Shown piece by piece: positions 1,515-7,470 of a stretch of DNA of 7,833 bases. Under the pieces are notes generated by a model. The model did no database searches. It had not been told where the DNA came from and saw only the letters and a program-made list of their open reading frames with translations. A program made the position numbers and the translations under genes. This DNA comes from a bacterium (GTDB lineage: Bacteria; B130-G9): assembly GCA_021160245.1 (NCBI GenBank), contig JAGHCW010000239.1, positions 1 through 7,833 of the forward strand, given 5' to 3'. Every line of letters begins with the position of its first letter. Position 1 is the first letter of the stretch.

Positions 1515-1589
1515 TTCTGATCAATATCCTCTCAGACCTTGACGAGAGCCTTTGTATGACCCAAAGTGATGCTGGAGGTGAAACATAAT

Positions 1590-1832
1590 ATGATAACCGC
1601 CAAAATTGCCATTAGCATTGACAAAGAAACTCTGAAACGCCTCGACCATCTTGTCAAGAATCGGGTTTTCCCCAGTCGGAGTAAGGCGATGCAGGAGGCG
1701 ATTGAGGATAAGCTCAACCGGCTTCAACACACTCGTCTTGCGGAAGAATGCGCAAAGCTCGATCCTGCCGACGAACAGGCATTGGCGGAAGAAGGCATGT
1801 CCTTTGAGCTCGAGCAACGGCCCGAATACTGA
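1590..1832 (+). CDS. Ribbon-helix-helix (CopG/Arc-type) antitoxin-like protein, toxin not found
   Basis: The protein has 80 residues. The ATG at 1590 is chosen because GGAGGTG (1574-1580) lies 9 nt upstream; an in-frame GTG at 1566 lies before that site. The N-terminus ([20 protein letters not shown]) has the alternating pattern of the RHH DNA-binding strand followed by helix 1. Helix 2 follows, with a turn at [16 protein letters not shown]. The acidic tail ([14 protein letters not shown], ending RPEY) resembles the toxin-binding tail of antitoxins paired with MazF/PemK-like endoribonucleases; that likeness is from memory. Such antitoxins form dimers, repress their own operon and neutralise the toxin. 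Here no toxin ORF follows within the usual few bases, and the next 230 nt hold no convincing MazF. It may be an orphan antitoxin, a remnant of a decayed pair, or a stand-alone RHH regulator. The fold is well supported; the partner is not. Confidence 0.8.
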
Positions 1833-2336: not shown

Positions 2337-2597
2337 CTATCCTTCGCGCTTCTCTGCCAGATACTCCCTGAACGGCCTGGATGGCTCATTGCTGCGGCTC
2401 TCAATTAGGTCTTCGTCAGATAGAGAGACTTCTATCTCCACCCGGTCCTCAACATGCAGGCGAATGGCGTCCTTGATGTTCTCAAGCGCCTCTTCGTATG
2501 TATCCCCTTGGGTGCAGCAGCCCTGAAGGTCGGGACACATCGCAAACCAGCCGTCCTTGTCCTTTTCGATTACGACGGGGAACCGGTATCTTCTCAT
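2337..2597 (-). CDS. hicB: HicB-family antitoxin-like protein, HicA not found
   Basis: The protein has 86 residues and runs leftward. The start chosen is the ATG complementary to 2595-2597, which begins MRRYRFPVVIEKDKDGWFAM as HicB proteins do and has GAGGA about 9 nt upstream; longer in-frame starts would add an atypical basic N-terminus. The partial RNase H-like HicB core is plain: FPVVIEKDKDGWFAMCPDL, then QGCCTQGDTYEEALENIKDAI and an acidic C-terminal part. In HicAB pairs HicB neutralises the HicA mRNA interferase. Many HicB proteins also carry a C-terminal DNA-binding domain, but this short form shows none. No HicA-like frame (small dsRBD-like protein with a GSH motif) is visible for at least 130 nt on either side. 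It is therefore an orphan HicB, a remnant of a lost pair, or a distantly partnered protein. Confidence 0.87.
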   Translation of the reverse strand: MRRYRFPVVIEKDKDGWFAMCPDLQGCCTQGDTYEEALENIKDAIRLHVEDRVEIEVSLSDEDLIESRSNEPSRPFREYLAEKREG

Positions 2598-2825
2598 TAT
2601 GTTAAATCCTCGCATTTGCCTCGCGGTTATGCTCTTCCAACGAAACTGCATCTTTACAATAGTGCCGCCTGTATGGCATCGCTTCAAGCGAAAAGATGAT
2701 GCAAGTTGAGCAGCAGAGAGTTAGCGCCTGATTGGCGTCATTTTGATCGTCGAACTTGACTGAACGTATGAGCAGGTGTTATCTTGCCGAGTCGCATTGC
2801 AGCTTCAGAATTGGTGTGTGCCAGC
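2598..2825. other. Divergent intergenic region between hicB and the argF leader
   Basis: No confident gene is present. The region must hold the leftward hicB promoter, for which no clear hexamers were found, and probably the argF promoter. A small hairpin, GCGCC (2725-2729) with GGCGT (2735-2739), is present. The 10-mer AGCAGGTGTT at 2771-2780 recurs at 2878-2887 close to the argF start. GTGCCAGCA at 2818-2826 recurs at 2873-2881. Confidence 0.45.
2756..2785 (+). promoter_or_regulatory. Candidate sigma70-type promoter for argF
   Basis: TTGACT (2756-2761, 5/6 to consensus) is followed after 18 nt by TATCTT (2780-2785, 4/6). Transcription from here would give a leader of about 135 nt before argF that includes the short upstream ORF at 2826-2936. 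No ARG-box match was recognised. The hexamers alone are weak evidence. Confidence 0.3.
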
Positions 2826-3981: not shown

Positions 3982-6900
3982 ATGAGAAGGCTAATTATAT
4001 GCCTGGTTGTGACATCTCTACTTGTGATGACGCAGGCTGCGGCGAGTGGATTCACGTTGCGTTTGGGGCTATATGACTTTTTCTCGTTCGAACCTCGTGA
4101 CATCACCGAGATATGCGAGGATGCTTTCGGATTTCGCCCCACTAACGTCATTCCTCTCAATTTCACTAGCGATTCTCTCATAGACGGCTACATCGGCTTC
4201 GACTTCGAGTCCCAAAGCATCTCGTACTACGACAACGCTGCGGCGTCATCGATCCCCATTGAGGACTTCATCACGGAGCTCTTCGGCTTCACTCCGCTGA
4301 GGCTCTCTGTGGTTCACAGAAGCGGCGAATATGACGATCTAGTAGGCTGGGACTTCAACAAGATAGTCATCCTCTCGCTGGACGATTTTCATCTTGATGA
4401 TGTGACACTCGAGCTCGCCGGAGCTCTCTCTGTCTCCGGCCTTTGCGGCAATGAGCAATCAAACATTGACGAGGCGACGATCGTCTATGATGGCGAGGAT
4501 TGGTACCTTGATTATGAGTACATTACGGATTTGGTTGAGAACCTGCTCGGAGTTGACGTCTTCCGCATGACTCCGCTGAACTTCCAGGATGGTGCGGCCG
4601 ACGACGGTTTGCTGTTCACATACGGGGCGGATAACGAACCTCCCCAAGCGGACTTCTCGATTGACCCCGAGACGGGCGATACAAAGACGACTTTCTGGTT
4701 CGACGCCTCGTCATCTTCGGACTATGAGGACGCGAGCGCGGAGCTCAAGGTCAGATGGGACTTTGACTCGGATGGTGTCTATGAGACGGAGCGTTCCTAT
4801 GACAAGCAGTCCCTCCATGCATTCACAACGCCCGGCCGGCACGATATCACGGTTGAGGTGATGGACATGGAGGGTGCGACGGATACCGCAACGAAGACTT
4901 TGACGGTCCAGAACTCGTTGCCAACCGCTAGGTTCGAGTCGCTTCCGGATATCGGCACGATTGGGACGCTTTTTTGGTTCGACGCCTCGACTAGCCACGA
5001 CGTAGAGGATGCGGCGGAGGAGCTAGAGGTTAGGTGGGATTTTGAGTCTGACGGGGAGTACGACACAGATTTCTCGACCGACAAGACAGTGTCACATCAG
5101 TATGAGCGGCCGATGCAATACACGGTAACACTCCTGATTAGGGACACAAGCGCTGGAGTGGCGGCGACGACCGGCAGTGTCGAGGTCCAGAATATGGGGC
5201 CATATCCTTGCTTTGAGGTTGCGCCTCCTACGGGCAATTACGAGACCGAGTTTGAATTCGACGCATCATGCAGCAGCGACGTTGAGGACGACATCACGGC
5301 GCTCCAAGTGAGATGGGACTGGGATAGCGACGGCGAGTACGATACCGATTTCAGCTATAATAAGGTCGCAGAACGAGGCGGCTGGCCGGTTGGGACGCAC
5401 CTAATCACGATTGAGGTGAGGGATAGTGCTGGCGACTCGAGCATGACCGCGGCGCAGATTATTGTGGAGAATACCGCGCCCAATGCCGCCTTTCTTGTCC
5501 AACCCATTCAGGGAACCGTGAGGACTGCATTCAATTTCGACGCCGGGACCTCAAGTGATCTCGAAGACGAGACAGCAGACCTTCTCGTGAGGTGGGACTT
5601 CAACTCTGACGGAGAGTTCGACACATCTTTCTCGACCACAAAGACCGCCGCGCGGAGCTTTGCGAGCCCGGGTCAGAAGACAATAACGGTACAAGTTGCC
5701 GACACCCACGACGCCCGCTCGGTTGAATCCCATTCTGTCACGGTAGCAAATACATCTCCGGTCGCATGTTTCACGTTTACGCCACATCTCGGCGACACCA
5801 ACACCGATTTTTCCTTTGACGCCAGCTGCTCAACAGACTGGGAATCGACCACCGGCTCGCTTGAGTTCAGATGGGATTTCAACAATGACGGCGCGTATGA
5901 GACCGAATTTAGCTCATCACCGGACATTCTGCATAGGTTCAGCGAGCCCGGTTCATGGACAGTCGTAGTGGAGGTTAAAGACGCACACGGGGCAACCGAC
6001 CAGGTCACCCAGGCAATTGATGTGGAGCAGGGCAATCGACCCCCAGTCGCTTGCTTCACGGTAGTTCCCCAGAATGGGACGACAGAGACTGTATTTGAAT
6101 TCGACGCTAGCTGCTCCAGCGACCCCGATTCCGATACTTCGGCGCAGCTTCAAATTCGATGGGACTTCGAGGGCGACGGGGTATTCGACACATCCTTCTC
6201 AACGACGAAATCCGCCTACCACACATACACGACGACTGGCTACAAGGATGCAGTGTTGGAGGTTCTAGACACCGAGGGCGGTACCGACACAGCAACCCAA
6301 CGGCTATTCATAGAGGCGGCTAATGTTCCACCCGTGGCCTGCTTTGGCATCACCCCCGAGAGCGGCAACACAACGACGAACTTCTCGCTTGACGCATCTT
6401 GCAGCAATGACCCAGACGGGTCTGAGGCGACGCTGCAATTCAGGTGGGACTTTGAGAACGACGGGGTATTTGACACAGCATATCTCTCGACCCCGTTCAT
6501 CTCGCACCAGTTCACAACCGCCGGTTCTAAGACGGTCTTGCTAGAGGTAAAGGACATTCGCGGTTCAGTCAACACAACCACGCGGAACCTGACTGTCGAT
6601 GAGCAAAATGTCCCACCCGTCGCGTGTTTTACTGTAACGCCCCTCTATGGCAACACGACGACGGACTTCGCCGTCAATGCAACGTGCAGCAATGACCCAG
6701 ACGGGTCCGAGGCGACGCTGCGATTTAGGTGGGACTGGACCAATGACGGTGTCTTCGATACCAGCTACTCAAACCAGAAGACGGCCTCACATAGGTACAC
6801 GACGCCCGGCACAAAAACCATAGTGCTTCAGGCGATGGACAGCGAGGGCGCAACCGATCAGACCACATGGACTGTTGAGGTCGAGCAGGGGAACGAGGCC

Positions 6901-7470
6901 CCAATCGGCTGCTTCACGGTCAATCCAAGCGCCGGAACAACAGATACTAATTTTGCCTTCGACTCCGCGTGCAGCAGTGACCCAGACGGGTCTGATTCTA
7001 CCCTTCAGGTGCGGTGGGATTGGACAAACGATGGCGTCTATGACACTGCATTCACAACGACGAAGACGGCAAACCACTCATATCCCTCCCCTGGCGAGTT
7101 TGTGGTCCTTTTGGAGGTCAAGGACGCAGCCGGCGCGACCGGGCATTATGCAAAAGGGATAAATGTCCAGTCGTCGGACAACAACCCGCCGGTAGCTTAT
7201 TTCACCGTCGAACCAAGCGCCGGAACACTTTCGACATTGTTCTTCTTCGACGCCTCAAGCTCATTTGATACGGACGAGGCGACAGGAGGCACGTTACAGT
7301 TCAGGTGGGACTTCGATGGTGACGGGACTTATGACACCTCCTACTCCTATCAACAGACGACGACCCACACGTTTGGTGAGACAGGGACCTATAACGTCCA
7401 GCTTGAGGTCAGAGACCCTCAGGGCGCGGCAGACACCTGCACCCGACCGGTCTATGTGACAGATGTATAG
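3982..7470 (+). CDS. Large secreted protein with a repeated N-terminal motif and ten PKD repeats
   Basis: The protein has 1162 residues. ATG 3982 is preceded by GGGAGGAG (3968-3975) at 6 nt. Residues 1-22 form a Sec signal peptide (IICLVVTSLLVMTQAAA), so it is exported. Residues 24-215 match no family I recognise; they contain three related segments beginning near I41, I93 and I181. Ten PKD repeats of 93-96 residues follow, starting near residues 220, 314, 407, 500, 593, 687, 783, 878, 973 and 1069. Each carries FDAS-like and RWDF/W..DG(x)(x)(D/E)T motifs and a final strand. Six repeats contain a matched pair of cysteines. PKD domains are immunoglobulin-like folds used for adhesion, spacing or carbohydrate/protein binding on the cell surface. 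There is no enzyme domain, LPxTG, PEP-CTERM or membrane anchor; the protein ends with the tenth repeat. Function is therefore likely structural or adhesive (inference). Repeats 7-9 are closely alike in DNA, suggesting recent tandem growth. Confidence 0.93.
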   Translation: MRRLIICLVVTSLLVMTQAAASGFTLRLGLYDFFSFEPRDITEICEDAFGFRPTNVIPLNFTSDSLIDGYIGFDFESQSISYYDNAAASSIPIEDFITELFGFTPLRLSVVHRSGEYDDLVGWDFNKIVILSLDDFHLDDVTLELAGALSVSGLCGNEQSNIDEATIVYDGEDWYLDYEYITDLVENLLGVDVFRMTPLNFQDGAADDGLLFTYGADNEPPQADFSIDPETGDTKTTFWFDASSSSDYEDASAELKVRWDFDSDGVYETERSYDKQSLHAFTTPGRHDITVEVMDMEGATDTATKTLTVQNSLPTARFESLPDIGTIGTLFWFDASTSHDVEDAAEELEVRWDFESDGEYDTDFSTDKTVSHQYERPMQYTVTLLIRDTSAGVAATTGSVEVQNMGPYPCFEVAPPTGNYETEFEFDASCSSDVEDDITALQVRWDWDSDGEYDTDFSYNKVAERGGWPVGTHLITIEVRDSAGDSSMTAAQIIVENTAPNAAFLVQPIQGTVRTAFNFDAGTSSDLEDETADLLVRWDFNSDGEFDTSFSTTKTAARSFASPGQKTITVQVADTHDARSVESHSVTVANTSPVACFTFTPHLGDTNTDFSFDASCSTDWESTTGSLEFRWDFNNDGAYETEFSSSPDILHRFSEPGSWTVVVEVKDAHGATDQVTQAIDVEQGNRPPVACFTVVPQNGTTETVFEFDASCSSDPDSDTSAQLQIRWDFEGDGVFDTSFSTTKSAYHTYTTTGYKDAVLEVLDTEGGTDTATQRLFIEAANVPPVACFGITPESGNTTTNFSLDASCSNDPDGSEATLQFRWDFENDGVFDTAYLSTPFISHQFTTAGSKTVLLEVKDIRGSVNTTTRNLTVDEQNVPPVACFTVTPLYGNTTTDFAVNATCSNDPDGSEATLRFRWDWTNDGVFDTSYSNQKTASHRYTTPGTKTIVLQAMDSEGATDQTTWTVEVEQGNEAPIGCFTVNPSAGTTDTNFAFDSACSSDPDGSDSTLQVRWDWTNDGVYDTAFTTTKTANHSYPSPGEFVVLLEVKDAAGATGHYAKGINVQSSDNNPPVAYFTVEPSAGTLSTLFFFDASSSFDTDEATGGTLQFRWDFDGDGTYDTSYSYQQTTTHTFGETGTYNVQLEVRDPQGAADTCTRPVYVTDV
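6328..7185 (+). repeat. Closely related tandem PKD-coding repeats 7-9, 285-nt period
   Basis: The block starting TGCAGCAATGACCCAGACGG occurs at 6400 and 6685 with one difference in the first 36 nt. A third copy starts at 6970 (TGCAGCAGTGACCCAGACGG). The spacing is exactly 285 nt (95 codons) both times. Repeat 6 is 288 nt before repeat 7 and more diverged. This is a coding tandem repeat within the PKD gene and a likely site for unequal recombination. Confidence 0.75.

Follow-up and report, generated by a model that had tools for sequence, protein, structure and literature searches.

Gene content of the locus and architecture of the PKD protein

The window, i.e., the whole stretch of DNA that was analysed (7,833 nucleotides), is a single contig (C71, 7833 bases) from a 3.43 Mb genome in 244 contigs. 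This genome belongs to a candidate phylum that is represented by four genomes in the collection, all from one family. The contig carries an aldehyde dehydrogenase-like frame, genes for a ribbon-helix-helix protein, a HicB-like antitoxin (minus strand) and an ornithine carbamoyltransferase, the gene of a protein with ten PKD repeats and the start of a peptidase M19 gene (Table 1). The start codon of the latter overlaps the 3' end of the PKD gene (window 7463-7470; L247 around 13322-13373). This overlap, joined to the conservation of the order ornithine carbamoyltransferase - PKD protein - peptidase M19 in a genome from another genus of the same family (G001), suggests an operon. No relatives of the PKD protein were found on the viral contigs searched.

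Table 1. Position of the genes upstream of the PKD gene and of the parts of the PKD protein in the window.
Feature	Position	Strand	Basis or remark
Ribbon-helix-helix protein	1566-1832	+	Upstream of the PKD gene
HicB-like antitoxin	2337-2687	-	Upstream of the PKD gene
CDS of the ten-PKD-repeat protein (1162 aa)	3982-7470	+	Open frame; PKD_4 E 2.1e-79, nine stretches
Predicted signal peptide, ~aa 1-21 (MRRLIICLVVTSLLVMTQAAA)	3982-4044	+	Sequence; heuristic signal-peptide scan
N-terminal domain, aa 22-216 (~195 aa)	4045-4629	+	Without Pfam match
PKD repeat 1, without pair	4636-4914	+	Aligned repeats
PKD repeat 2, without pair	4915-5193	+	Aligned repeats
PKD repeat 3, pair C410 (5209-5211) / C430 (5269-5271)	5194-5472	+	
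PKD repeat 4, without pair	5473-5751	+	Aligned repeats
PKD repeat 5, pair C596 (5767-5769) / C616 (5827-5829)	5752-6036	+	
PKD repeat 6, pair C691 (6052-6054) / C711 (6112-6114)	6037-6324	+	Also modelled
PKD repeat 7, pair C787 (6340-6342) / C807 (6400-6402)	6325-6609	+	Also modelled
PKD repeat 8, pair C882 (6625-6627) / C902 (6685-6687)	6610-6894	+	Also modelled
PKD repeat 9, pair C977 (6910-6912) / C997 (6970-6972)	6895-7182	+	
PKD repeat 10, without pair; lone C1153 (7438-7440) near the C-terminal end	7183-7467	+	

The protein reaches 262 bits over nine stretches with the PKD_4 profile (PF18911), whose curated cut-off is 27, and is thus a member of the PKD domain proteins; the PKD profile (PF00801) gives 160.6 bits. 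The predicted signal peptide has a cysteine (C7) inside its hydrophobic core and no lipobox. The N-terminal domain that follows is present only in this genome and in G001 among the 193 genomes searched. Three degenerate copies of a strand-helix-strand-strand unit seem to make it up; its structural model (pLDDT 36) is too poor for use. Its two cysteines (C45 and C155) are both kept in the G001 orthologue. The ten repeats reach to a few residues short of the C-terminus, where no obvious anchor is seen. Tandem Repeats Finder detected no DNA-level repeat across the array, which indicates that the PKD repeats are old and strongly diverged.

The cysteine pair within the protein and in its orthologue

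The protein contains 16 cysteines (residues 7, 45, 155, 410, 430, 596, 616, 691, 711, 787, 807, 882, 902, 977, 997 and 1153). The sequence-only reading had described pairs of cysteines always 20 residues apart in repeats 3 and 5-9, and all six pairs were verified by position. They occupy columns 4 and 24 of the aligned repeats, in the contexts PxxCF and FDASCS, and are the only cysteines of the paired repeats. It had also been stated that the four other repeats have neither cysteine and that none has just one, which the alignment bears out: repeats 1, 2, 4 and 10 carry D, R, A and Y at column 4 and S, T, T and S at column 24, respectively, and C1153 lies outside the pair columns and is not kept in the orthologue. 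The chance of such a perfect 6-in-10 match would be 1 in 210 if the repeats were independent, but they share descent.

The G001 orthologue (57% identity) is found at the same genomic place, flanked by the ornithine carbamoyltransferase and peptidase M19 genes. It has ten repeats in which presence or absence of the pair is identical repeat by repeat: all 12 pair cysteines are kept and every pairless repeat stays pairless. A tree of these 20 repeats, computed without the two pair columns, needs about three state changes (2-4 in bootstraps). The strict pattern within the protein is the outcome of few events plus long conservation. Owing to the small number of state changes, co-occurrence inside the PKD protein alone amounts to a few events only, and the weight of the co-occurrence argument comes from the orthologue and from other lineages rather than from the window protein alone.

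Co-occurrence of the two cysteines in other PKD repeats

For a wider survey, 79 loci were collected using motifs located outside the cysteine positions (YDGE[DN]WY, WDFEGDG) and further loci using Pfam PKD_4 or whole-protein searches. A first count, own family included, gave 33 repeats with both cysteines, 4 with one and 486 with neither. The fuller count comprised 932 distinct repeats and, after removal of the own family, 912 repeats from 151 loci. Among the latter, at a spacing of exactly -20, 13 have both cysteines, 2 the first only, 8 the second only and 889 neither (Fisher p 5e-22; 13 observed vs. about 0.35 expected). The two columns are thus coupled in distant lineages, in agreement with the proposal that the pair is gained or lost as a unit. 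Moreover, in three of the eight repeats with the second cysteine only, a partner is located upstream at -19 or -23, which leaves five true singles.

Frequent single-cysteine repeats in homologues had been named as an observation that would speak against a disulfide. This is mostly not what is seen at the exact spacing, since the partner is present in 13 of the 15 outside repeats with a cysteine at exactly -20; a cysteine at the second column occurs in 21, of which 16 show a partner upstream (-19 to -23) and five do not. With a loose spacing (19-23), 16 pairs are found outside the own family vs. 17 single cases, mostly A-strand cysteines at other registers; about ten repeats have an A-strand cysteine only, several of which could instead pair with a cysteine about 46-56 residues further on. 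The pair rule is therefore strong but not absolute, some relatives breaking it.

The outside paired loci are nine loci of Peregrinibacteria/Patescibacteria type, most with a single pair per locus, which look like one orthologous repeat, as well as L034 (five repeats, each bearing further cysteines), L013 and L152. They are non-independent, yet they represent at least 3-4 separate protein families. By number of loci, -20/0 is the most widespread placement of a cysteine pair in the survey.

Structural position of the pair

A mean-field coupling analysis was run on 849 aligned repeats, and among its 3828 column pairs 4-24 takes the first place. When the sequences with a cysteine at either column are removed, this pair falls to rank 1390, which shows that its coupling is a cysteine effect. 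In the same reduced set, column pairs 5-22, 3-22 and 3-24 rank 34, 44 and 105, which puts strand A alongside the end of strand B. The AlphaFold2 model of repeats 6-8 (mean pLDDT 96.4) has the PKD beta-sandwich fold and shows lone bridge residues two positions before the first cysteine and two positions after the second in all three repeats. Bridge partners were deduced from the one-letter secondary structure of the model; the simplest reading is that these residues pair with each other, so that the cysteines would face each other across antiparallel strands. It is known from crystallography of PKD-like domains that strands A, B, B' and E share one sheet (PMC4356367).

The best solved structural matches of the model are PKD domains (Z 14.0 to 12.1), including 2c26 (Z 14.0, rmsd 1.8 over 92 residues) and 4aqo (Z 12.7, rmsd 1.9 over 86 residues). 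Foldseek matches to titin, contactin and GhpA were discarded, as they reflect merely a general likeness between tandem sandwiches. With regard to the suggestion of a disulfide tying the first strand to the FDAS strand, the strand geometry (coupling and modelled bridges) fits, and the bond itself is inferred.

The predicted Ca2+ site next to the pair

The Ca2+ ligands of PKD-like domains include an Asn, an Asp-x-Asp and a strand F Asp (PMC4356367). All 20 repeats of the window protein and its orthologue have an Asp three residues and an Asp or Glu five residues after the second pair position, and the linker Asn and the VxDxxG-type Asp are also present in the repeats by sequence. Columns 27-75 and 29-75, which correspond to putative Ca2+ ligands, rank high in the coupling list, in agreement with the published site (PMC4356367). 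As these loop residues are kept in 20 of 20 repeats, the disulfide would add to the predicted Ca2+ site and not replace it. Outside the own family, the DxD/E loop is found in 1 of 16 paired vs. 340 of 879 pairless repeats, a comparison that is strongly non-independent and dominated by one orthologous group.

Export and proposed oxidation

The sequence-only reading also proposed folding in an oxidising place outside the cytoplasm. Export is supported by the predicted signal peptide, recognised by sequence and by a home-made scan, whereas profile searches found neither DsbA (PF01323) nor DsbB (PF02600) nor VKOR (PF07884) in the four genomes of the phylum (83-95% complete); these profiles do match control genomes. 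A home-made gene and signal-peptide scan of 60 stretches of the own genome (about 0.7 Mb) provided a sample of proteins predicted to be exported. Their cysteine content is 1.66% vs. 1.89% of residues and they show no overall parity bias (17 with an even and 21 with an odd number of cysteines). Among predicted exported proteins with at most 6 cysteines, the even:odd ratio is 11:4 in the own genome and 6:1 in its relatives, but this cut was chosen post hoc and is not relied on. Oxidation of the pair cysteines is likely because of the pairing itself; the location of this oxidation outside the cytoplasm is the weaker part of the proposal.

Two other predicted exported proteins of this genome deserve mention. 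One, of 805 aa (L233 6632-9046; G000:C98), has a marginal Thioredoxin_4/GILT-like region and is matched in each of the phylum's four genomes (G000-G003); it is a candidate thiol oxidoreductase. The other, of 2097 aa (L239 246-6618; G000:C23), contains 70 regularly spaced cysteines in beta-helix-like repeats (C.GAI..CTI..NSA..GGGLY).

Probable role of the pair and alternative explanations

Taken as a whole, these data make it very likely that each pair forms an intradomain disulfide between strand A and the end of strand B, which would stabilise a putative secreted rod-like stalk. Within the A-B-E sheet of the sandwich, such a bond would act as a staple, holding the N-terminal strand A with its PxxCF motif against the FDASC end of strand B. 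The predicted Ca2+ site (Asn of the preceding linker, SxDxD/E loop and Asp of VxDxxG) would lie alongside. The bond would stop strand A from peeling off and would stiffen the pole that joins each repeat to the preceding one in the stalk. Six of the ten repeats would then have the staple plus an apparently intact Ca2+ site and the four others would rely on the Ca2+ site and the core alone.

The distribution of the pair could also result from shared descent only, the pair having spread through repeat duplication and been kept without bond or selection. The few changes required on the tree of 20 repeats and the closeness of repeats 5-9 would agree with this. However, conservation of every pair cysteine in strongly diverged repeats of proteins that share 57% overall identity, the placement of paired repeat 3 among the pairless repeats 1, 2 and 4 and the recurrence of the pair in unrelated proteins make it an improbable explanation. 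Bonds between repeats or between molecules would account for the odd cysteine totals due to the lone C1153 and to the extra cysteines of the orthologue. Against such bonds stand the constant spacing of 20 residues, the pairless repeats that sit between paired ones and the loci of Peregrinibacteria type that mostly have one pair each, so that this arrangement appears extremely improbable.

The lack of DsbA, DsbB and VKOR in the four genomes and of an overall parity bias is what would be expected if the pair stayed reduced, with a thiol role (e.g., metal binding) or with folding under reducing conditions. Nevertheless, two cysteines 20 residues apart with no further conserved cysteine per repeat would be a poor metal site, there is no strong depletion of cysteine among the predicted exported proteins and the two cysteines act as a coupled unit, and we consider a reduced pair very improbable. 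Another possible, although rather unlikely, reading is that the phylum would make disulfide-stapled secreted proteins without recognised DsbA, DsbB or VKOR, relying on an oxidant or oxidase not yet recognised, such as the 805-aa protein. In a milder version of this proposal, the disulfide and the Ca2+ site may be interchangeable staples of the same strand, given how seldom the outside paired repeats keep the DxD/E loop.

Comparison with known systems

The intradomain disulfide would be carried by a module that is otherwise ordinary. PKD repeats are common parts of microbial surface and secreted proteins, and those of the window resemble the PKD domain of a C. thermocellum endoglucanase (2c26) and the PKD-like domains of the C. 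histolyticum collagenases ColG and ColH (4aqo, 4jrw, 4jgu) in sequence family, fold (Z 11-14 overall), WDF core and residues of the predicted Ca2+ site. In contrast with the window protein, where six of ten repeats have the cysteine pair, the solved relatives whose alignments were compared do not have it. A literature search of partial coverage yielded no paper describing a disulfide for PKD domains of prokaryotes. The disulfide-bearing subset would be a new disulfide variant of this surface-protein module. A disulfide that can be read from the sequence repeat by repeat, with Ca2+ sites apparently kept, offers a simple natural test of the share of each staple in stability and stiffness.

The V-set domains of immunoglobulins are also two-sheet sandwiches, in which the classical disulfide joins strand B to strand F. 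They resemble the PKD fold in this respect and in having one disulfide per domain, but in the PKD pair the bond would stay inside one sheet, linking strand A with the end of strand B; the paired repeats of the window have no strand F cysteine and therefore not the classical immunoglobulin disulfide.

Coupled cysteines inside PKD repeats are also seen at other positions, probably on other strands. In G107 (L165, L166), another coupled pair is located at -11/+50 from the second pair column (18 repeats, 3 loci, p 2e-20) and is likely a second disulfide placement in the PKD family. In L034 (ORF L034_+_0_1368), the -20/0 pair is accompanied by extra cysteines, among them one at -9 and, in some repeats, one at +6, so that these repeats possibly have two disulfides each.
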